Origin: Pseudomonas sp. ZH-FAD | Lineage (GTDB): Bacteria > Pseudomonadota > Gammaproteobacteria > Pseudomonadales > Pseudomonadaceae | Length of the DNA stretch: 64,000 nucleotides | Direction of reading: 5' to 3' | NCBI RefSeq assembly: GCF_002803095.1 | Contig: NZ_PGLR01000030.1 | Span: 1-64,000 of the forward strand | Shown here: positions 2,587 to 16,988 of the stretch, piece after piece | How the letters are laid out: every line of letters begins with the position of its first letter | Numbering within the stretch: position 1 is the stretch's first letter | The notes under the pieces: model-generated | Told to the model about the DNA's origin: nothing | The model's input: only the letters and a program-made list of their open reading frames with translations | Database searches by the model: none | Translations under genes and position numbers: made by a program

Positions 2587-3192
2587 TCAGAGCAATGGTT
2601 TGAGTGTCGGCCAGACGTTATCGAGTAGCACTGGCTGAGCTTCAGCGGTCGGATGGATTCCATCAGGCTGCATCATGGAAGGCACGCCGCCTATGCCCTC
2701 CAGCACAAATGGCACCAAGGCAGAGCCGGACTCTTCGGCCACTTTGGAGAACACTTCAGCGAAAGCTGTCGTGTAGCGCGCCCCATAGTTGGGCGGTAAG
2801 CGCATCCCTAAAATGAGCACCTTGGCCCCTGCCTGCTGTGACTTCTCGACCATAGACGCAAGATTCTGTTGCAATTGCGCAGGGGGCTGGCCGCGCAGGC
2901 CATCGTTGCCGCCCAGCTCGATGATGACCAGCTCCGGCTTGTGCTCTGCAAGTAGCGCAGAGAGCCGTGCGGCGCCGCCTGCGCTGGTGTCGCCGCTGAT
3001 CGAAGCATTGACCACCGAGTGCTCGAATCCCTCGTCCTCAAGGCGTTTTTCCAGCAGAGCGACCCATCCCTGGCGGCTATCCAGGCCAAAAGCGGCGCTG
3101 ATACTATCGCCGACCACAAGCAGGGTGCCTGCAACCGCCCCCTGAGCCCAGAACATCAGGGCCAAGGCACCACTCAACCACCATGCACGCAT
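2587..3192 (-). CDS. tesA: periplasmic acyl-CoA thioesterase I / lysophospholipase, GDSL (SGNH) family
   Basis: The 201-residue protein begins with a signal peptide (residues 1-21, cleavage after AVA) and has all four SGNH blocks: GDSISAAFG with nucleophile Ser30, the Gly block in SISGDTSAGG, GGND, and DGIHPT with the Asp/His pair. TesA hydrolyses acyl-CoA and other thioesters and lysophospholipids in the periplasm. The start ATG has GGAG nine bases upstream. It is divergent from the ABC transporter genes that follow, the same arrangement as tesA/ybbA/ybbP in many gammaproteobacteria. Length and motifs are typical, so the identification is firm. Confidence 0.95.
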   Translation of the reverse strand: MRAWWLSGALALMFWAQGAVAGTLLVVGDSISAAFGLDSRQGWVALLEKRLEDEGFEHSVVNASISGDTSAGGAARLSALLAEHKPELVIIELGGNDGLRGQPPAQLQQNLASMVEKSQQAGAKVLILGMRLPPNYGARYTTAFAEVFSKVAEESGSALVPFVLEGIGGVPSMMQPDGIHPTAEAQPVLLDNVWPTLKPLL

Positions 3193-3203
3193 TTGGAATC
3201 TCC

Positions 3204-3887
3204 ATGACTTCGAGCATTCTCGCTGCGCGGAACCTTAGCAAAGTGGTCAGCAGCGCGGAAGGCGAGCTGACCATCCTTCATGATCTCGATCTCGAACTGA
3301 GCAAAGGCGACAGCCTGGCCATCGTCGGGGCCTCAGGCTCTGGCAAATCCACCCTGCTCGGACTGCTCGCTGGCCTGGACCTGCCCAGTGGCGGCGCCGT
3401 GCTGCTGGCCGGCAAGAACCTCGGCGAGCTCGATGAAGACCAGCGTGCGCGCCTGCGCGCCGAGCACGTGGGTTTCGTCTTCCAGTCGTTCCAGTTGCTC
3501 GACAGCCTCAACGCGCTGGAGAACGTGATGCTGCCGCTGGAGCTGGAAGGTCATGCCGATGCCCGCCAGCGTGCCCGGGCGCTGCTCGAGCGCGTCGGCC
3601 TGGGGCAACGCCTGACGCACTACCCTCGGCAACTCTCCGGTGGTGAGCAACAGCGCGTGGCCATCGCCCGCGCCTTCGCCGCCGAGCCGGACGTACTGTT
3701 CGCCGATGAGCCCACCGGCAACCTCGACAGCCACACCGGAGAGCGCATCAGCGACTTGCTCTTTCAGCTCAACCAGGAACGCGGTACCACCCTGGTGCTG
3801 GTCACCCACGACGAGCGTTTGGCGCACCGCTGCCAACGCCTGATCCGCCTGGAAGCCGGACACCTGATCGACCGCGTGGAGCCCTGA
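3204..3887 (+). CDS. ybbA: ABC transporter ATP-binding protein, YbbA/LolD-like
   Basis: The 227-residue ATPase has Walker [10 protein letters not shown] (about 42-50), a Q-loop in FVFQSFQLL, the signature [14 protein letters not shown], Walker [13 protein letters not shown] and the switch His in VTHDE. This is the MacB/LolD subfamily that energises FtsX-type permeases. The start at 3204 gives a standard N-terminus; an upstream in-frame ATG at 3183 would overlap the 5' end of tesA. The stop TGA overlaps the ATG of the permease by one base (TGATG), so the two are translationally coupled. Substrate is unknown; the pairing with tesA suggests an acyl or lipid-related job, but this is inference. 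Confidence 0.9.
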
Positions 3888-6391
3888 TGAAACGCGTGCC
3901 CGTCACTCGCCTGTTTTCGCTCGCTGCCCGCCAACTGCTGCGCGATGCCCGCGCTGGCGAGTTGCGGGTGCTGTTCTTCGCCTTGCTGGTCGCTGTAGCC
4001 GCCAGCAGCGCCATCGGTTATTTCAGCGCGCGCCTGAATGACGCCATGCTGCTGCGTGCCAGCGAGTTTCTCGCCGCCGACCTGCGCCTGAGCGGCAGCG
4101 CACCGGCCAGCCAGGAACAGATAGACGCGGGGCTCAAGCTGGGTCTCGATCACGCACAAGCGGTGGAGTTTTCCAGCGTGGTGGCTGCCCAGGAAGGCAT
4201 TCAGCTGGCCAGCGTCAAGGCAGCCAATAGCCTTTATCCGCTGCGCGGCGAACTGAGGAGCGCAGCCGAACCCTACGCTCCAGAGGAAGCGGGTTCCGGC
4301 CCGCGCCCCGGAGAAGTCTGGGCCGAAGCGCGCCTGATGGTCGCGCTGAATCTGAAGATTGGCGATGAACTGGAAATAGGCGCCAAAACCCTGCGCTTGA
4401 GCCGCGTGCTCACCTATGACCCCGACACTGCTGGCGACTTTTACAGTCTGACGCCGCGCGTGCTGATGCACCTGGACGACCTTGCCGCGACTGAAGTGGT
4501 ACAACCCGGTAGCCGTGTACGCTTTCGTGAACTCTGGCGCGGCGATGCCAATGCCCTGGCGGCCTACCGTCAGGCAGTCGAAGCCGACCTGGAACCCAAC
4601 CAGCGCCTGGACGACGCTCGCGATGGCAATCGCCAGGTCGGCGGTGCCCTCGGCCGCGCCGAACGTTATCTGAACCTGGCCAGCCTGGCAGCCGTGTTGC
4701 TCGCTGGCGTCGCGGTAGCACTCTCGGCCGCTCGCTTCGCTGCGAGGCGCTTCGATGCCAGTGCGCTGCTGCGCTGCCTTGGGCTATCACGGCGTGAAGC
4801 GTTGGCCCTGTTCGGCCTGCAGCTGGCGTTGCTCGGGCTGATCGCCTGCCTGATCGGCGCACTGCTGGGCTGGGCCGGCCAACACGTGCTCTTCTATCTG
4901 CTGCGCGGGCTGATCCCGGATGATCTGCCGCCGGCCGACCTATGGCCCGCATTGGCCGGCATGGCCACCGGCCTGGTGGCGCTGGCCGGTTTCGCCCTGC
5001 CGCCGCTGGCCGCGCTCGGCCGCGTGCCGCCGCTACGCGTCTTGCGCCGCGATATGCTGCCGGTACCGGCCAGCTCCTGGCTGGTCTACGGCGCAGCGCT
5101 GATCGCACTGGGTTTGATCATGTGGCGCCTGAGCCTGGATCTGCGCCTGACGCTGGCACTGCTGGGTGGCGGACTACTCGCCGCATTGCTGCTCGGCGGT
5201 CTGTTGTTGCTCGGTTTGCAGAGCCTGCGCCGCCTGCTGCAGCGCGCCGCCCTGCCCTGGCGCCTGGGCCTGGGCCAGTTGCTGCGCCATCCGCTGGCGG
5301 CAGCCGGACAATCGCTGGCGTTCGGCCTGATCCTGCTGGCCATGGCGCTGATCGCCCTGCTGCGCGGCGAGCTGCTCGATACCTGGCAGGACCAGTTGCC
5401 GGAGGACGCGCCCAATCATTTCGCCCTCAATGTGCTGCCTGCCGAGCGCGATGCGTTCGCCGAACGCCTGGCCGAGCTATCGCCGCATCCAGCCCCGCTA
5501 TATCCCGTGGTGCCGGGCCGTCTGATCATGATCAACGGTGAGCCGGTACGCCAACTGGTAACCAAGGAAAGTCGCGGCGAGCGCGCCATCCAGCGCGACC
5601 TGAGCCTGACCTGGGCCGAGGATCTGCCATCCGACAACCTGATCACCGCTGGCAATTGGTGGGGCGCTGCGCACGCCAGCGAGCTGCCTGGGGTTTCCGT
5701 CGAATCCGAGCTGGCCGAAAGCCTGCAACTGAAGCTCGGCGACCAGTTGCGTTTCAATGTCGGCGGGATCGAACGCGACGCGCAGGTCACCAGCCTGCGC
5801 CAGGTGGATTGGGACAGTTTCCAGCCCAACTTCTACATGATCTTCGAGCCGCAGACCCTGCAGGACCTGCCTGCCACCTACCTGACCAGCTTCTACCTGC
5901 CGCCCGGCCAGGACGCGGAGCTGGTAGCCCTCAGCCGCGCCTTCCCCAGCGTGACGCTGCTGCAGGTCGATGCCCTGCTGGCGCAACTGCGCAGCATCCT
6001 CGCTCAGGTCACCCTGGCCATCGAGTACGTGCTGCTGTTCGTGCTCGCCGCCGGCATCACCGTGCTGCTCGCCGGGCTGCAAGCGACACTGGACGAACGC
6101 ATTCGCCAGGGGGCGCTGCTGCGCGCACTGGGCGCCGAACGCAAGCTGCTGATCAGTGCCCGGCGCGCCGAATTCGGCCTGCTCGGCGCGGCTGCCGGCC
6201 TGCTGGCCGCTTTGGGCTGCGAGCTGGTGAGCTTTCTGCTCTATCGCTACGCATTCGACATGAGCTGGCAACCGCACCCCTGGCTGCTTCTGCTGCCGCT
6301 GATCGGCGCCCTGCTGATCGGTCTGGCCGGCGTGCTCGGCACCCGCCGCGCACTGAATGCCAGCCCGTTGAGCGTGCTACGCGAAGGCTGA
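3887..6391 (+). CDS. ybbP: ABC transporter permease, YbbP-like, two FtsX domains
   Basis: The 834-residue inner-membrane protein has an N-terminal segment (about 20-45), a large periplasmic domain, a first block of membrane helices around 260-490 with very Leu/Ala-rich stretches, a second periplasmic domain (about 500-690), and a final FtsX domain (about 700-834) ending in the usual ASPLSVLREG-like tail. It is the partner of the ATPase directly upstream, with a one-base overlap. The 10-helix FtsX layout and length match the YbbP family, whose transported substrate is not established. The gene ends 54 bp before greB. Confidence 0.9.
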   Translation: MKRVPVTRLFSLAARQLLRDARAGELRVLFFALLVAVAASSAIGYFSARLNDAMLLRASEFLAADLRLSGSAPASQEQIDAGLKLGLDHAQAVEFSSVVAAQEGIQLASVKAANSLYPLRGELRSAAEPYAPEEAGSGPRPGEVWAEARLMVALNLKIGDELEIGAKTLRLSRVLTYDPDTAGDFYSLTPRVLMHLDDLAATEVVQPGSRVRFRELWRGDANALAAYRQAVEADLEPNQRLDDARDGNRQVGGALGRAERYLNLASLAAVLLAGVAVALSAARFAARRFDASALLRCLGLSRREALALFGLQLALLGLIACLIGALLGWAGQHVLFYLLRGLIPDDLPPADLWPALAGMATGLVALAGFALPPLAALGRVPPLRVLRRDMLPVPASSWLVYGAALIALGLIMWRLSLDLRLTLALLGGGLLAALLLGGLLLLGLQSLRRLLQRAALPWRLGLGQLLRHPLAAAGQSLAFGLILLAMALIALLRGELLDTWQDQLPEDAPNHFALNVLPAERDAFAERLAELSPHPAPLYPVVPGRLIMINGEPVRQLVTKESRGERAIQRDLSLTWAEDLPSDNLITAGNWWGAAHASELPGVSVESELAESLQLKLGDQLRFNVGGIERDAQVTSLRQVDWDSFQPNFYMIFEPQTLQDLPATYLTSFYLPPGQDAELVALSRAFPSVTLLQVDALLAQLRSILAQVTLAIEYVLLFVLAAGITVLLAGLQATLDERIRQGALLRALGAERKLLISARRAEFGLLGAAAGLLAALGCELVSFLLYRYAFDMSWQPHPWLLLLPLIGALLIGLAGVLGTRRALNASPLSVLREG

Positions 6392-9957: not shown

Positions 9958-10977
9958 TCAGGCGCTGTCGCGCATCACCAGCTCGAAGCCAACGTCGATG
10001 CAATGCTGCTCCGGCGTTTCGCCACGCATCAGCGCCAGCAGCATGTTCGCCGCCAGCTCACCGACACGACCACGGGTGGTACGCACGGTACTCAAGGCCG
10101 GATGCATCCAGGCTGCCGCTGGCAAATCGTTGAAACCGGCGATGGCCAGGCGTCCCGGCACGTCCAGGCCCAGTTGACGCGCGCGGAACAGCGCGCCCAT
10201 GGCCAGGTCGTCGTTGTTGAAGAACACCGCATCGATCTGCGGCTGCTGCGCCAGCAGGCGATCGAGCAACTCGGCGCCCAAGCCGATGGATGACAACTGC
10301 GGTGTCAGCAACTCCAACGCCGGATCATGTCGATTGAGGTAGCGCATCACCTGACGGTAGCCTTCTGCACGCTGCAAGGTGCGTGGGTCAAGCTGCGCTG
10401 CGGCGAAGGCGATATGGCGGTAACCACGCTGCACCAGGGCACGGGTCATGGCAGCGCCGGCTTCGACCTGAGAGAAGCCGACGCAGTAATCCTCCGGCTC
10501 CTCGCTCAGCTCCATCAACGTCACCAATGGGCAACTGCTGGCGCCGAGGATTTCGCGCGCCGCATCGCTGCGCTCGAACCCCGTAAGCAGCAGACCCGCT
10601 GGCTGGTGCGCCAGATAGGAACGCAACAGACGCTCATCCTCCTCGACCCGGTAGTGACTGACGCCGATCATCATTTCGAAGCCGGCCGGCATCAGCACCC
10701 GCTGGATGGCCTCCACGGTATCGACGAACACCGAGTTCGACAGCGACGGGATCACCACCGCCACCAGGTTCGAACGTGAACTGGCCAATGCCCGCGCTGC
10801 CGGGTTGGGCACGTAACCCAGCGCCTGGGCCGCACGCATCACCTGCTCGCGCAGCGCATCCGACACCCGCCCCGGCTGCGACAGCGCGCGCGAGGCGGAC
10901 ATCAACGAGCAGCCCGCGGCCTTGGCCACGTCGGACAAGGTGACACGTTCTGCGGACCGGCGACGGCGTTGGCTCAT
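9958..10977 (-). CDS. gntR: LacI-family repressor, gluconate (GntR-like)
   Basis: The start ATG 10977 has GGAGG upstream; the longer frame to 11064 lacks a site. The 339-residue protein has an N-terminal LacI helix-turn-helix (about 12-32, TLSDVAKAAGCSLMSASRAL) and hinge helix (NPAARALA), then a periplasmic-binding-like effector domain from about 60 (LVAVVIPSLSNSVF to the end). It is the last gene of the minus-strand gluconate cluster, 177 bp after dctP, so it may be partly independent. A palindrome with a TAGCGCTA core lies over the promoter of the cluster and is the likely operator. Gluconate or 6-phosphogluconate is the probable inducer, by analogy with GntR of P. aeruginosa. Confidence 0.85.
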   Translation of the reverse strand: MSQRRRRSAERVTLSDVAKAAGCSLMSASRALSQPGRVSDALREQVMRAAQALGYVPNPAARALASSRSNLVAVVIPSLSNSVFVDTVEAIQRVLMPAGFEMMIGVSHYRVEEDERLLRSYLAHQPAGLLLTGFERSDAAREILGASSCPLVTLMELSEEPEDYCVGFSQVEAGAAMTRALVQRGYRHIAFAAAQLDPRTLQRAEGYRQVMRYLNRHDPALELLTPQLSSIGLGAELLDRLLAQQPQIDAVFFNNDDLAMGALFRARQLGLDVPGRLAIAGFNDLPAAAWMHPALSTVRTTRGRVGELAANMLLALMRGETPEQHCIDVGFELVMRDSA

Positions 10978-11154
10978 AGCGCCTCCAATGATTTCAGCGG
11001 CCGATTCTACCAGCCCCGCCGGGGAATAAAGCGCGGGACACGCCGCCCGGGGTAACGCCACCATGCAAGGAGCGTTACCACCTGCGTGCCCCGCGAAACT
11101 GCGAACCTGCCCAAAATCAGCGGCGCACTGACCGCGCCAATCCTGGGCAAGCCC

Positions 11155-12168
11155 TTATAGAGCGGCCTTTTCGGCTTCGGCCTGGACCTGATCGAACAGC
11201 TGCTGGCCGACCGTATCGACGACCTTCTGGATCGCCGGCGCGGCCTGCTCACGCATGCGCTGCACTTGCGCCGCTTCCACTTCGTTGATCTGCATACCCT
11301 TGTCCTTCAGCTCGGCCAGGGCACGCGCAGCTTCCTCGCGGGTGTCCTGGCGCTCGAAGTCACGCGCCTTCTTGGCCGCTTCCAGCAGAATGTTCTGCTC
11401 GGTTTGCGACAGGCCATCCCACCAGCGCTTGGACACGGTGACGATCCACGGGCTGTACACGTGGTTGGTCACGGTCAGGTACTTCTGCACCTCGTAGAAC
11501 TTCGAGGAAAGAATGGTGTTGAAGGGGTTTTCCTGGCCGTCGACGGCCTTGGTCTCCAGCGCGGTGAACAGCTCGGAGAACGGCAGCGGCACGGCATTGG
11601 CGCCCATCAGCTTGAAGGTCTCGAGGAATACCGGGTTGGGCATCACGCGCAGTTTGACGCCGGAGAAGTCCTCCAGCTTGCTGATCGGCCTTGTGTTGTT
11701 GGTCAGGTTGCGGAAGCCGTTCTCCCAATACACCAAGCCGACCAGGCCCTTCTCCTCCAGCTTGTCCATGACCTGGCGGCCCACCGGGCCGTCGAGCACG
11801 GCATCGGCCTGCTCGGCACTGCTGAACAGGAAAGGCGTGTCCCACACCGCCATTTCCTTGGTGATGCCCACCAGGGTCGCGGTGGAACCGACCATCATTT
11901 CCTGCGCGCCGCCAATCAGCGCACTCTGCATCTGATCATCCGAGCCCAGGCTGGCGGCACCGAAGGTGCGCACCTTGAGCTTGCCGTCGGAGGCCTTGGC
12001 GACCTCCTCGGCGAACAGCTTGGCCGCGCGGCCCTGATTGCTGTTCTCGTTGAGACCGTAACCGAAGCGGATCATGCGTGAGCGCACGTCATCGGCATGG
12101 GCGGTGAAACTGGCGAGCGGGCTGCACAGCATGGCAGCGGTGAGGATGGCGAGCAGTGGACGTTTCAT
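11155..12168 (-). CDS. TRAP transporter solute-binding protein, probably gluconate
   Basis: The 337-residue DctP-family protein has a signal peptide (1 to about 25, ending TAHA). It shows family features GAASLGSDDQMQSALIGGAQEMM, the Arg-containing segment GVKLRVMPNP that usually clamps the substrate carboxylate, and VDGQENPFNTI. It captures an organic acid in the periplasm and delivers it to the membrane subunits encoded upstream. Gluconate is inferred from the linked gluconokinase and repressor. A Crc-like motif AACAATAA abuts its Shine-Dalgarno sequence. Confidence 0.88.
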   Translation of the reverse strand: MKRPLLAILTAAMLCSPLASFTAHADDVRSRMIRFGYGLNENSNQGRAAKLFAEEVAKASDGKLKVRTFGAASLGSDDQMQSALIGGAQEMMVGSTATLVGITKEMAVWDTPFLFSSAEQADAVLDGPVGRQVMDKLEEKGLVGLVYWENGFRNLTNNTRPISKLEDFSGVKLRVMPNPVFLETFKLMGANAVPLPFSELFTALETKAVDGQENPFNTILSSKFYEVQKYLTVTNHVYSPWIVTVSKRWWDGLSQTEQNILLEAAKKARDFERQDTREEAARALAELKDKGMQINEVEAAQVQRMREQAAPAIQKVVDTVGQQLFDQVQAEAEKAAL

Positions 12169-12225: not shown

Positions 12226-13503
12226 TCAGCGCAGCCAGGCCAGCGGCACGGTGACGATGGACGGGAACGCCACCAGCATCGCGACGATGATCAGGTAAAT
12301 CAGGAAGAACGGCATGACGCCGCGTACCAGCACTTCCATGCGCAACTTGCCGATACCGCCGACGACGTTAAGCACGGTGCCCACAGGCGGCGTGATCAGG
12401 CCGATGGAGCCGATCAGCACGAACATCACACCGAAGTACACCGGATCGACACCGGCCTTGATCGCGATGGGGGCCAGTACCGGCGCCAGAATCAGGATGG
12501 TCGGCGTCAGGTCGAGCACCATGCCCACTGCGATCATCAGCAGCATGATCGCCAGCACCAGCAGGCGCGGGTGTTCGGCCAACGGCCCGAGCATGGCGCC
12601 AATCTCGTCCGGCAACTGCGCCAGGGTGATCATGTAGGCCGATACCGTGGCAGCGGCGCAGAGGAACATCACCGACGCCGTGGTGCGGCTGGCGCGGGTC
12701 AGGGTTTCCATCAGATCGCTCCAGCTCAGCTCGCGGTAGAGCAAGGTGGAAACGGCCAAGGCGTAGACCGCAGCGACCACCGCCGCTTCGGTAGGGGTGA
12801 AGATACCGAAGCGCAGACCGCCGACGATGATTACCGGCAACATCAGCGCCGCAGCACCGTCGATCAGCACCCGACGACGCTCGGCGGCACTGGCCTTGGG
12901 TGGCGTTGGCTCGGTGAAACCCCGGGCGATCAGCGTCCAGGCAATGATCAGACCTGCGCCCATGATCAGCCCTGGCACCAGACCTGCCATGAACAGCTGG
13001 CTGATGGAGGTGTTGGTGACCACGCCATAGATCACGAACGGCATCGATGGCGGAATGATCGGCGCGATGATGCCGCCAGCGGCTACCAGTCCCGCCGAGG
13101 AATGCACCGGATAACCGCGCTGGCGCATCATCGGCAACAGCAGGGTGGCGAGCGCAGCAGTATCGGCCAGTGCCGAACCGGACATGCTGGCCAGCAGCAC
13201 GGCGGCCGCAATGGCAACGTAGCCGAGGCCTCCGCGCAGGTGGCCAAAGTAGGCCTGCGCCATGGCGATGATGCGCCGGGAAATGCCGCCGGCGTTCATC
13301 AGCTCGCCAGCCAGGATGAAGAACGGCACCGCCAGCAGCGGGAAGCTGTCAGCGCCGGCGAGCAGGTTCTGCGCCAGCAGCTGCACGTCCCAGAAATCCA
13401 GGTACCACATCAGTACGGCCGCGGTGAGGATCAGGGCGAAGGCGATGGGCATGCCGAATGCCATGAACCCCAGCAGGGAAGAAAGAAATACCGCGACAGT
13501 CAT
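12226..13503 (-). CDS. TRAP transporter large permease (DctM), probably gluconate
   Basis: The 425-residue protein is almost entirely membrane helices (about a dozen) with the DctM hallmarks FMAFGMPIAFAL, SFPLLAVPFFILAGELMNAGGISRRII, SGSALADTAALATLLLPMM and TPTEAAVVAAVYAL. It forms the sodium-coupled transport channel together with the small permease. The start ATG 13503 has AGGA upstream. It lies 49 bp after the gluconokinase-DctQ gene and 57 bp before dctP, so the three are one operon. A long open frame on the opposite strand is a codon-bias shadow. Confidence 0.92.
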   Translation of the reverse strand: MTVAVFLSSLLGFMAFGMPIAFALILTAAVLMWYLDFWDVQLLAQNLLAGADSFPLLAVPFFILAGELMNAGGISRRIIAMAQAYFGHLRGGLGYVAIAAAVLLASMSGSALADTAALATLLLPMMRQRGYPVHSSAGLVAAGGIIAPIIPPSMPFVIYGVVTNTSISQLFMAGLVPGLIMGAGLIIAWTLIARGFTEPTPPKASAAERRRVLIDGAAALMLPVIIVGGLRFGIFTPTEAAVVAAVYALAVSTLLYRELSWSDLMETLTRASRTTASVMFLCAAATVSAYMITLAQLPDEIGAMLGPLAEHPRLLVLAIMLLMIAVGMVLDLTPTILILAPVLAPIAIKAGVDPVYFGVMFVLIGSIGLITPPVGTVLNVVGGIGKLRMEVLVRGVMPFFLIYLIIVAMLVAFPSIVTVPLAWLR

Positions 13504-13552: not shown

Positions 13553-14674
13553 TCATTCGACCTGAGCCTGGGTCAGCGTCACCTGCGGCGTACGCCGCCA
13601 GAGGTTGACCAACTGCACCACCGCCAGAATCGCCAGCACCAGCATGCTCGCCAGCACCGGCAGCATCGCCAGCACCACTGGATAACCGACCACGGTACTG
13701 ACGTTGCCCCAGCCGAACTGCACCTGATTCCAGGCGCCCAAGGCCGAGAGCAGGCTCGCTCCTGCCACGAGAATCCAGCTCAGCGAATCAACCAGTCGCT
13801 GCGCCAGCAGCGGGAAGCGGTCACGAATCATGCGGAAGGTCATCAGCTCGCCACGGCGCATACCAGAGGCCACACCGACGAAGACCAACCAGACGAACGC
13901 CAACCGCGAAAGCTCCTCGGCACCCGGCCAGCCGGTGCCGAAGACGTAACGCAGCACCACGTTGGTGAACACCGCCACCACCATGAAGGCCATCAGCACC
14001 GCCATCAGGCCATCGGTCAGGCGATCGAACATACGCGCGATGCGGCCTTCGTAGATCGGCTCGGCGCCTAGCTGGGCCGCCTGGTTAGCGCTATCAATTT
14101 CGCTATCGAGCATATCCTGAGCCTGGCTCGACACTGCCTCCGCCGCTTCGCGACGTACCCAAGCCTGAATGTCGGCCACCAACGCTTGCTGCGACTGCTG
14201 CGCATCGACGACTCGTACGTATGGCTCACCTGCCGGGCTTTCGAGGGTGGCGAACTGGCTGTCGACCAGCGAAGTCGGCATGAAATGTCCGGGCCGAGCA
14301 CCGACACGTTGCACCGCGGTGGCGTGGTCGATATCCAGATGCACGAATTGCAACCCTGGAACCGCCTGACGCAGGCGCTCGCGGTAAGCGCGCTTGAGCG
14401 CCGAGCAAGCCAGTACGAAACATTCACCTGCGGCCTGCGCAGCCAGCATCTGCTCGCACAGTGCATCCAGCCAGTGGCGACGGTCTTCGTCACTCAGTGG
14501 GATGCCCGCGCGCATGCGCTCTACGTTCTCAGGGGGATGGAAATGATCGGCTTCGATATGGCGCCAACCGAGTGCGGTGGCGACCGCCTGGCTGATCTCG
14601 CTCTTGCCGGAGCCACTGACACCCATGACCACCAAGGTGGTACGGGCAGGCAATGCGCAAGGCTGCTGTTGCAT
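13553..14674 (-). CDS. gntK: gluconokinase fused to TRAP small permease (GntK-DctQ)
   Basis: From ATG 14674 (GGAG nine bases upstream) the single frame encodes 373 residues. Residues 1 to about 175 are a GntK/IdnK gluconokinase: Walker A GVSGSGKS (18-25), EADHFHPPENVERMRAGIPLSD, VLACSALKRAYRERLR, and GHFMPTSLVDSQF. A polar linker of about 35 residues follows (SSQAQDMLDSEIDSANQ), then a four-helix DctQ domain from about 205 (FDRLTDGLMAVLMAFMVVA, RYVFGTGWPGAEELSRLAFVW). The kinase would face the cytoplasm, tethered to the gluconate importer, and phosphorylate the incoming sugar acid to 6-phosphogluconate. I see no stop or frame break at the join. The first gene of the operon, it is controlled by the adjacent operator. 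The longer frame to 14782 would run back over the promoter. Confidence 0.88.
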   Translation of the reverse strand: MQQQPCALPARTTLVVMGVSGSGKSEISQAVATALGWRHIEADHFHPPENVERMRAGIPLSDEDRRHWLDALCEQMLAAQAAGECFVLACSALKRAYRERLRQAVPGLQFVHLDIDHATAVQRVGARPGHFMPTSLVDSQFATLESPAGEPYVRVVDAQQSQQALVADIQAWVRREAAEAVSSQAQDMLDSEIDSANQAAQLGAEPIYEGRIARMFDRLTDGLMAVLMAFMVVAVFTNVVLRYVFGTGWPGAEELSRLAFVWLVFVGVASGMRRGELMTFRMIRDRFPLLAQRLVDSLSWILVAGASLLSALGAWNQVQFGWGNVSTVVGYPVVLAMLPVLASMLVLAILAVVQLVNLWRRTPQVTLTQAQVE

Positions 14675-14722: not shown

Positions 14723-14753
14723 GGATGTTAGCGCTATCCAAATCGTTCGACAA
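14723..14753 (-). promoter_or_regulatory. sigma-70 promoter with overlapping GntR-type operator for the gluconate operon
   Basis: On the minus strand TTGTCG (14753-14748), a 17-bp spacer and TAACAT (14730-14725) make a good promoter, placing the start of transcription about 44 bases ahead of gntK. A near-palindrome GGATGTTAGCGCTATCC (14723-14739, plus strand) with the perfect core TAGCGCTA covers the -10 and spacer. A TAGCGCT core is what I recall for the P. aeruginosa GntR operator. Binding there would block polymerase. Confidence 0.6.
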
Positions 14754-14870
14754 CCCTCTCCCGGCAACATTTCGTAGAGCATTTCCGCTAATGACTACCG
14801 TCCAGCTCTGGTCCGTTGCTGGCTGACGCGTTCAAGATCGCCTACCTGCCCCGAGGGAGACATTTCGCTT

Positions 14871-16988
14871 ATGTACCGGCTGAGCCCCAGCTTCTGGCTG
14901 CCCGCATTGTTCCTGCCACTGACTGCACAGGCCGAAAACGCCACCTACCAGGCCGACCCACTGGTGGTCACCGGCAGCCGTTATCAGGCCAGCGGCTGGC
15001 AATTGCCCTTCTCGGTCAACCGCATCGATGCCGAACAGGCCACCCAGGGCAAACCCGGCGTCAACCTCTCCGAAGCACTCGGCAGCGTTCCGGGACTGGT
15101 GGTGCAGAATCGGCAAAATTATGCGCAGGACCTGCAAATATCCTCACGCGGCTTTGGCGCCCGCTCGGCCTTCGGTATTCGTGGCATCAAGCTGCTGGCT
15201 GATGGTGTGCCGCTGTCCAACCCGGACGGCCAGGGCCAGGCGGCGACCTTCGACCTCGACACCCTGGAGCGCATCGAGGTCCTGCGCGGGCCATTCGCCA
15301 GCGTCTACGGCAGCAACTCAGGCGGGGTCATCCAGCTGTTCTCGCGCGATGGCGAAGGCGCCCCCAAGGTCGCGCTCGACACCTCCCAGGCCGCTTACGG
15401 CACCAGCCGTACCCGCGTCTCGGCCGAAGGCGGCAACGACAGAGCCGGTTTCATCATCAACCGCTCGCACTTCGAGACAGACGGCTACCGCGACCACAGC
15501 GGCGCCATCCTCGACAAGACCTTTGCCAAGCTGACCCTGTACCCGGATGACCTCAGCAAGCTCAGCCTGAGCTTCAGCGAACTGGATCAGAACGACACAC
15601 AAGACCCGCAGGGTCTGACCTGGGATCAGGTACAGACTGATCGGCGATCTGCCGCGCCTAGCGCCCTGGCGTTCAACACACGCAAAACGGTGGATCATCG
15701 TCAGCTGGCGCTCAACTACGAACGCAGCTTTGCCGTCGGCACCTGGCAAAGCACGTTGTACAGCGGCACGCGACGGGTGATTCAGTACCAGTCGATTCCA
15801 AAGGCGGTGCAAGAAAATAGTGATAAACACTCCGGCGGAGTAATCGACTTCGAGCGCCGCTTCCATGGCATCGGTAATCGCTGGATCCAGTCGTTCGACC
15901 TGGGTAGCAGCCTGCTGACTGTCACCACCGGCCTGGACTACGACTATTCGCGCGATGACCGTCAGGGCTACGAGAACTTCGTCGGCGACACCCTCGGCGT
16001 GAAGGGCGATCTGCGCCGCGACGAGCGTAATGAGGTCACCAGCCTGTCGCCCTACGTCCAGGCAGCCTGGCAATTGGGCAAGCTAGAGATACAGGCTGGG
16101 CTGCGCTACAACCATGTCGAATTCGATGTAGATGACAATTTCATCCTCTCCAGTGCCTGCCTGAACCCGCAAACCGAAAATTGCGACGACAGTGGCTCCG
16201 CCACCTACCGTGAATGGACCCCAACCCTCGGCGCCAGCTATGCCCTGCTGCCAAACTTGAATATCTATGCCAGCTGGGGCAAGGGCCTGGAGACACCCAC
16301 GCTCAACGAACTCTCCTACTCAGGCCCAGGCAACAGCTTCGGCTTCGATCTGAAACCTGCAACTAGCGAGCAGTTCGAGATTGGCCTGAAAGCCCGTCTG
16401 GCCGAAGCGACCAATCTGCAGGTCGCACTGTTCCAGATCGACACCGACGATGAGCTTGTCGTTGCCTCGGCACAAGGTGGCCGCAACAGCTTCCAGAACG
16501 CCGCACAGACTCGCCGCAGGGGCGTCGAGCTGGCACTGGAGAGCCGCTTGAGCGACACCCTGCGCGCCAACCTCGCCTACACCGAGATCGATGCCACCTA
16601 CAGCAAGGATTTCACCAGCAACGGCCGCCTGATCGCAGAAGGTAACCACCTGCCCGGCATTCCCGCGCGCACGCTGTATGGTGAGCTGGCCTGGCAACCT
16701 CTGGACTGGTTCAGCACCGCCGTCGAAGGCCTGTACCGCAGCCAGCTCTATGTCGAGGACAGTAATACCGCCAAGACGGCGCCCAGCTACTCGCTGTTCA
16801 ACTGGCAGGCGCGCTTCGAGCAGAAGGCCGGCGCACTGACCTTCAACCAGGTGCTGCGCATCGACAACCTGCTGGATCGCGAATACATCGGTTCGGTGAT
16901 AGTCGGTGACGGCAACGGCCGCTACTACGAACCCGGCCCGGAGCGCGCCTGGTATGTCGGCGCAGGCGTGCAATACCAGTTCGATTGA
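14871..16988 (+). CDS. pqqU: TonB-dependent outer-membrane receptor, PqqU (YncD)-like
   Basis: The 705-residue precursor has a signal peptide (1 to about 21, ending TAQA) and a TonB-box-like DPLVVTG. The plug domain follows, with SVPGLVVQNRQNYAQDLQIS and RGFGARSAFGIRGIKLLADG, and a 22-strand barrel ends in aromatic YQFD. Long stretches match my memory of E. coli YncD, now known as PqqU, which imports the cofactor PQQ: INLSEALxxVPGL, YQSIP, GDLRRDERN, ETPTLNELSY, NAAQTRRRGVELA and SVIVGDGNGRYYEPGP. The start has GAGGGAGA about 11 bases upstream. It is divergent from the gluconate operon. Uptake of PQQ would feed periplasmic glucose dehydrogenase, which makes gluconate. A siderophore role is the alternative. 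Confidence 0.82.
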   Translation: MYRLSPSFWLPALFLPLTAQAENATYQADPLVVTGSRYQASGWQLPFSVNRIDAEQATQGKPGVNLSEALGSVPGLVVQNRQNYAQDLQISSRGFGARSAFGIRGIKLLADGVPLSNPDGQGQAATFDLDTLERIEVLRGPFASVYGSNSGGVIQLFSRDGEGAPKVALDTSQAAYGTSRTRVSAEGGNDRAGFIINRSHFETDGYRDHSGAILDKTFAKLTLYPDDLSKLSLSFSELDQNDTQDPQGLTWDQVQTDRRSAAPSALAFNTRKTVDHRQLALNYERSFAVGTWQSTLYSGTRRVIQYQSIPKAVQENSDKHSGGVIDFERRFHGIGNRWIQSFDLGSSLLTVTTGLDYDYSRDDRQGYENFVGDTLGVKGDLRRDERNEVTSLSPYVQAAWQLGKLEIQAGLRYNHVEFDVDDNFILSSACLNPQTENCDDSGSATYREWTPTLGASYALLPNLNIYASWGKGLETPTLNELSYSGPGNSFGFDLKPATSEQFEIGLKARLAEATNLQVALFQIDTDDELVVASAQGGRNSFQNAAQTRRRGVELALESRLSDTLRANLAYTEIDATYSKDFTSNGRLIAEGNHLPGIPARTLYGELAWQPLDWFSTAVEGLYRSQLYVEDSNTAKTAPSYSLFNWQARFEQKAGALTFNQVLRIDNLLDREYIGSVIVGDGNGRYYEPGPERAWYVGAGVQYQFD

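Follow-up and report, generated by a model that had tools for sequence, protein, structure and literature searches.

A gluconokinase fused to a TRAP small permease in Pseudomonadaceae, with a candidate second GntR operator in the coding linker

The window (the whole 64,000-nucleotide stretch of Pseudomonas sp. ZH-FAD DNA that was analysed) contains on its minus strand a gene, gntKQ (13553..14674), which encodes 373 amino acids, followed by a stop codon, in a single open frame. The preliminary description of this DNA had read the gene as a complete gluconokinase joined in frame to a complete TRAP small permease. Indeed, the profiles of both families recognise it above their cut-offs: the GntK-type gluconokinase domain (residues 14–173; 14156..14635) scored 186.9 bits with TIGR01313, the GntK/IdnK profile (cut-off 113.75), and the four-helix DctQ (TRAP small permease) domain (residues 231–361; 13592..13984) scored 81.4 bits with PF04290 (cut-off 28.3). 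The linker between them, also on the minus strand (approximately residues 177–206; 14060..14146), has about 30 residues. An alternative in-frame ATG is present at 14782, upstream of the gntKQ start at 14674. We consider 14674 the better start, because the operator of the promoter region (14727–14738, described below) lies upstream of it and because GGAG is found, by eye, five bases 5′ of its ATG.

The Walker A sequence GVSGSGKS starts at residue 18, exactly where it had been placed. When the kinase motifs were checked in an alignment of 30 fusions, they were found intact, as the P-loop (G18–K24, with S or T at residue 25) and D43, H46, R65, C90–L93, R123, R127 and H130 are all invariant or nearly so. 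Among solved structures, the gntKQ sequence matches three gluconokinase-type kinases (3t61, 4eun and 1knq, the nearest to the kinase domain), with which its motif stretch aligns, and, weakly, a TRAP small subunit. In an AlphaFold2 model built from the 30 aligned fusions (mean pLDDT 69, pTM 0.47), the kinase is modelled well, the linker is disordered (residues 181–210, pLDDT below 50) and DctQ has, with modest confidence, four long helices (211–245, 251–273, 289–323 and 327–360). The best ten Foldseek matches of this model were all gluconokinase entries, one of which, 4eun, is titled only ‘sugar kinase’.

In the genome as a whole, gntKQ was the sole match to the gluconokinase model in a profile search with TIGR01313. 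The same genome has 13 DctQ-like matches including gntKQ, 12 of them above the cut-off (that is, 12 others, 11 over it); it thus holds many TRAP importers, and gntKQ alone joins DctQ to a GntK-type kinase. A distant GntP-like permease (36% identity) is also present.

The genes that adjoin gntKQ on the minus strand complete an importer and supply a regulator. They are dctM, encoding the TRAP large permease (12226..13503; PF06808, 397.8 bits, cut-off 23.8), dctP, encoding the TRAP solute-binding protein (11155..12168; PF03480, 320 bits), and gntR, encoding a LacI-type gluconate repressor (9958..11064). The latter scored 483.8 bits with NF052440, the NCBI model of Pseudomonas GntR (cut-off 400), and closes the gntKQ operon. 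The NF052440 match begins at residue 36, and the true gntR start probably lies inside this frame. Divergent from gntKQ is a gene for a TonB-dependent receptor (14871–16988, plus strand), for which the best NCBI model is that of PqqU, the PQQ receptor (655.9 bits, far under the cut-off of 1200); such a receptor is labelled beside the fusion in 15 of 45 loci, all from near relatives of the window's species.

The solved structure nearest to DctP is 7bbr (E = 6e-102), the sugar-acid binder CxaP, which is described as taking several sugar acids (PMC12076931, PMC11668362). CxaP belongs to a TRAP system of Advenella mimigardefordensis, which we compare with the present operon by its binding protein only. 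This breadth of the closest solved binding protein would fit an importer that serves mainly another sugar acid, such as xylonate or galactonate, with gluconate secondary. We think this rather unlikely, however, since the kinase fused into the importer is a gluconokinase and the repressor of the operon scores as the gluconate regulator GntR; gluconate would then be the main substrate.

We analysed how widely the fusion is conserved. We scanned named genomes with the full-length fusion as query, an approach that picks up only close relatives; it gave 45 loci, and in all 45 the kinase–DctQ frame is uninterrupted. Their hosts are species of Pseudomonas (mendocina, oleovorans, alcaliphila, indica, luteola and others) and Stutzerimonas. 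Genes for DctM and DctP are labelled in every one of these loci, and the order gntKQ-dctM-dctP-gntR is found in 42; two of the remaining loci have no gntR labelled there (L049 and L051 have none labelled beside dctP), and one has a different labelled order. Among 248 genomes sampled from the family, 61 gave a match at E≤1e-60, and 60 of these have the fusion in one open frame. Comparison of these relatives thus rejects a missed stop or an assembly error as the source of the fusion. The exception in the family sample is genome G381, in which the halves occupy separate overlapping frames (3139–3747 and 3744–4268 of locus L070), with the overlap in the linker. The split leaves the operator, described below, in the kinase part; both a sequencing error and a real split could account for it.

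In a genus sample the fusion was present in 9 of 149 genomes, most of the others having a stand-alone kinase. Outside the window's family no fusion was seen in samples of the class (369 genomes, E≤1e-54), the order (293 genomes, E≤1e-20) or the phylum (398 genomes, E≤1e-20), which overlap, include family members and could let weaker or split-scoring fusions escape. Two candidates were set aside: G1191 has a stop between the genes and is an unfused pair, and a 689-amino-acid kinase frame of G028 was not counted, as it sits where long frames overlap on both strands; some of the other long frames around kinases in the phylum sample were viewed by ORF map only. A search of plasmids matched 261 records, and among the best 10 of the 261, four had both genes under the match, annotated as two genes. 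Both domains of the fusion are under purifying selection (dN 0.01–0.11, dS 0.37–0.81 against six relatives), and the linker evolves faster than the domains (dN 0.03–0.44 against the same relatives). The 20 fused kinases included in a tree group together as a single clade (support 100/99). Judged from these sequences, the fusion is old, maintained and widespread within one bacterial family. A literature search at the level of titles and abstract openings, in which subscription journals were thinly covered, found no description of a gluconokinase–DctQ fusion or of a gluconate TRAP operon in these bacteria; the fusion may well already stand in sequence databases as an unremarked domain pair.

In known TRAP structures, the N and C termini of DctQ are both cytoplasmic, which would place the kinase on the inner face of the membrane. 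The product of gntKQ would thus be one protein, in which a flexible tether in the cytoplasm connects a gluconokinase with the small membrane subunit of the importer. Gluconate, either made in the periplasm or external, would bind to DctP, enter the cell by way of DctQM and be converted to 6-phosphogluconate by the tethered kinase. Tethering at the importer had been proposed for this locus, and a tether to the membrane follows from the anatomy of DctQ; the further idea, that the sugar acid is phosphorylated as it enters, we keep as a suggestion.

A stronger form of that idea would be substrate channelling, in which gluconate would pass directly from the exit of DctM to the tethered kinase, so that import and phosphorylation are coupled in the manner of a PTS. 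The union of the kinase and an importer subunit in one chain in all 45 named loci, together with the conservation of both domains, would be expected of such a device. However, rigid docking of the kinase is unlikely, because the linker is disordered in the model and varies in length by up to approximately 30 residues among the relatives. Moreover, the transport path of TRAP importers is formed by DctM, and DctQ is not known to form a substrate path. Unfused operons of the same make-up also exist, as does the one genome with a split gene (G381). Channelling is, in our opinion, a doubtful explanation of the fusion, and we prefer a flexible tether.

The preliminary description had treated the linker as a polar protein segment. 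A linker is present, but a reading as protein only misses the GntR-type DNA operator that makes up its best-conserved part. Codons D194, S195, A196 and N197 (14084..14095) read GATAGCGCTAAC on the coding strand, and the identical 12-mer is found in this genome in the gntKQ promoter region (14727..14738), 643 bp from the linker operator. In the whole genome (6,176,533 bases) the pattern GWTAGCGCTAWC occurs in two places, the gntKQ promoter region and the linker; this count took the exact form of GWTAGCGCTAWC only, so that looser variants fall outside the figure of two. The same pattern read backwards, used as a control, occurs nowhere in the genome. A scan allowing one mismatch, confined to the window, found two sites against a mean of 0.42 expected, but 6 of 100 shuffles also reached two. 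Since this last result is weak, the case for the operator is built on the exact count in the whole genome and on the codon test described below.

The core of the linker site, TAGCGCT(A), is the core of published GntR operators. DNase I footprints of P. plecoglossicida GntR are reported at GGTAGCGCTGTC, GACAGCGCTATC and GACAGCGCTGTC in the gntR, gntK and gntP promoters (PMC12195362), and the P. aeruginosa GntR consensus is given as ending in TAGCGCT, the repressor being released by gluconate and 6-phosphogluconate (PMC5902321). The sequence TAGCGCTA is found in the linker in 41 of the 45 named loci and, as an exact match, upstream of the operon in 43. In 39 of the 41 loci with a linker operator, the 12-mer is GATAGCGCTAAC. 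The upstream site is more varied, being GATAGCGCTAAC in 16 of 45 loci; thus, as upstream operators differ between loci, the exact identity of the two sites seen here is not general. The distance between them is 637–664 bp across the named loci. With added loci, the linker operator is present in 51 of 56 fusions, or in 49 of 53 after removal of three repeats (pairs L059/L030, L067/L044 and L080/L039). The four distinct fusions that lack it belong to the luteola/duriflava/asuensis group and to S. azotifigens DSM 17556, in which the linker operator is therefore dispensable.

We compared the fusion with unfused relatives, drawn from the window's genus and family. The set was raised from 22 to 24 Pseudomonadaceae loci by the addition of L078 and L120; L077 and L098, which repeat L064 and L068, were excluded. 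In 21 of the 24, a GntR-type operator lies 3–29 bases after the gntK stop codon, and in all 21 a relative of one GntP symporter follows directly behind the operator. The earlier comparison of the fusion with the separate gntK and gntP genes of P. aeruginosa was, therefore, apt. The three loci without an operator after gntK are L094, L099 and L102; the L102 kinase is distant, and the result for L094 is taken from the scan of 22 loci, its kinase having been missed in the scan of 24. The position of the operator relative to the kinase is also alike: the distance from the operator core to Walker A is 513–540 nt in 51 of 56 fusions (or, with the three repeats removed, in 49 of 53) and 508–536 nt in 19 of 22 unfused loci.

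A second type of relative has the same genes as the fusion operon, with gntK followed by dctQ, dctM and dctP, and with a gene for a LacI-type regulator. Six such loci were available, four from a gammaproteobacterial family (f109) and the others from Comamonas endophytica and Azospirillum sp. B510. In these operons gntR is transcribed divergently and gntK stands as a gene apart from dctQ; unlike in gntKQ, both operators lie upstream of gntK, with none found between gntK and dctQ in any of the six. In Comamonas, edd lies close behind the unfused operon.

These positions make the linker look like a former intergenic regulatory region that is now translated. They suggest, as the simplest account of its origin, that TRAP dctQMP genes replaced gntP behind a Pseudomonas gntK, and that upon loss of the gntK stop codon the intergenic operator became the linker. 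It is also possible that the whole gntK-dctQMP operon was inherited and the operator gained afterwards. Trees of the kinase and of GntR neither support nor reject a nearness of the fused genes to the unfused Pseudomonas genes as against the unfused TRAP operons. Holding the fused and unfused Pseudomonas kinases together was not rejected in two trees (p-AU 0.147 and 0.138). Grouping of the fused with the f109 kinases gave p = 0.0004 without the plasmid locus L128 and p = 0.522 with it, L128 then falling inside the group. The GntR tree had three separate groups and carries a long-branch warning. L115 and L121 gave no row in the first kinase tree, and L102, with its very long branch, was dropped from the two later ones. 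Because the trees do not decide, derivation from the region between gntK and gntP is argued from the position of the operator.

The operon gntKQ-dctM-dctP-gntR would be repressed by GntR from the upstream site. The linker site would be a second operator and would make repression tighter, through a DNA loop to the site approximately 640 bp upstream or joint action with it, or as a roadblock to transcription. It could instead control an internal promoter, for extra dctM-dctP transcript or for a separate DctQ protein. The equivalent site of P. plecoglossicida does precede gntP and was footprinted there; the authors of that study, however, suggest co-transcription of gntK and gntP, with no −10 box between the two genes (PMC12195362). 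A promoter scan found none in the corresponding region of gntKQ, an observation of little weight, as it found none upstream of gntKQ either. As for a separate DctQ, an in-frame ATG, GTG or TTG occurs at least once in the stretch scanned in 20 of 31 fusions, some of these codons lying before the operator. This stretch, situated before the first helix, begins 25 codons ahead of the PIY motif and ends at the FD motif; for the longest linkers it stops short of the operator. But the position of the start is not conserved, and the other 11 fusions have no start in this stretch, which makes a conserved separate DctQ product unlikely. We therefore give little credence to an internal promoter, and favour a second operator.

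If the linker site is kept as DNA, its codons should be more constant than the protein requires. We analysed codon usage in 31 of the 56 fusions, thinned to less than 93% identity, at degenerate columns in which the amino acid is common to 20 or more rows; the statistics treat related sequences as independent and so show the strength of the effect and not an exact probability. In only five of 231 such columns is the codon always the same, and the D, S and N of DSAN account for three of these five (GAT in 28 of 28, AGC in 27 of 27 and AAC in 25 of 25, respectively). For the alanine of DSAN, GCT is used in 27 of 28, against a share of 12% among alanine codons. The codon before DSAN ends in T in 27 of 31 fusions, with six amino acids among those 27, whereas T is found at 15% of third positions. 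Where residues are exchanged in individual loci (D to G, D to V and N to T), TAGCGCTA is preserved in each case. The linker site thus looks to be conserved as DNA, and under selection, while the neighbouring residues drift. That DSAN, alike in most fusions, is kept as protein, for instance as a hinge, and matches the operator by coincidence is hardly credible, given that its codons are invariant while the preceding residue varies, that the exchanges retain TAGCGCTA, that the fusions without the operator (L039 and its repeat L080, L049, L050 and L051) also have different residues, and that the 12-base pattern is found elsewhere in the genome only upstream of gntKQ. Most likely, the translated site is kept as a second operator.

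The above results lead us to consider it probable that gntKQ encodes a gluconokinase tethered to the membrane at a TRAP importer for sugar acids, and that the former intergenic operator in its linker serves as a second GntR operator. The broader proposal, that the fusion made an intergenic regulatory region both a linker and a working intragenic operator while the tethered kinase couples import and phosphorylation in a PTS-like way, is put forward tentatively, being improbable in that full form.

The arrangement can be compared with known systems. In lac, the O2 site of the repressor lies inside lacZ, hundreds of base pairs from the main operator; the linker site likewise lies in the first structural gene, hundreds of base pairs from the main operator, but differs from O2 in being placed between two protein domains, where an intergenic operator formerly would have stood. 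Fusions of DctQ with DctM, and the PnuC–NadR fusions of a transporter with a kinase, also unite transporter parts, or a transporter and a kinase, in one chain; neither joins a gluconokinase to DctQ. The gntR/gntK-gntP loci of P. aeruginosa and P. plecoglossicida share with gntKQ the GntR repressor and the operator core, as far as described (PMC5902321, PMC12195362), but there the importer is the GntP symporter and not a TRAP system, and kinase and permease are separate. A literature search of titles and abstract openings found no description of an intragenic LacI-family operator of this kind.

The operator in the linker is a more surprising part of this locus than the fusion itself. A coding linker that doubles as a regulatory site can rarely be traced to its origin, and here living bacteria hold all the states: gntK, operator and gntP in succession, gntK and dctQ with no operator between them, and the fused gene. 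Since the unfused and fused states are extant and the core is common to footprinted operators, it can be tested directly whether the linker is kept for its DNA and not for its protein. A natural TRAP importer with its own kinase would also be a simple system in which to ask whether tethering speeds the capture of the substrate.

Two further features of the operators were noted. In many loci (L027, L029, L036, L042, L046, L048, L061, L062 and L076), a CTTTCC or CTTTCT stretch is seen by eye approximately 18 bases ahead of the linker operator, and may be a further regulatory or promoter element. On beta- and alphaproteobacterial plasmids, pairs of TAGCGCTA operators precede gntK (near 3856 and 3959 in L128, and near 3774 and 3864 in L129), indicating that this type of operator reaches well beyond Pseudomonas.
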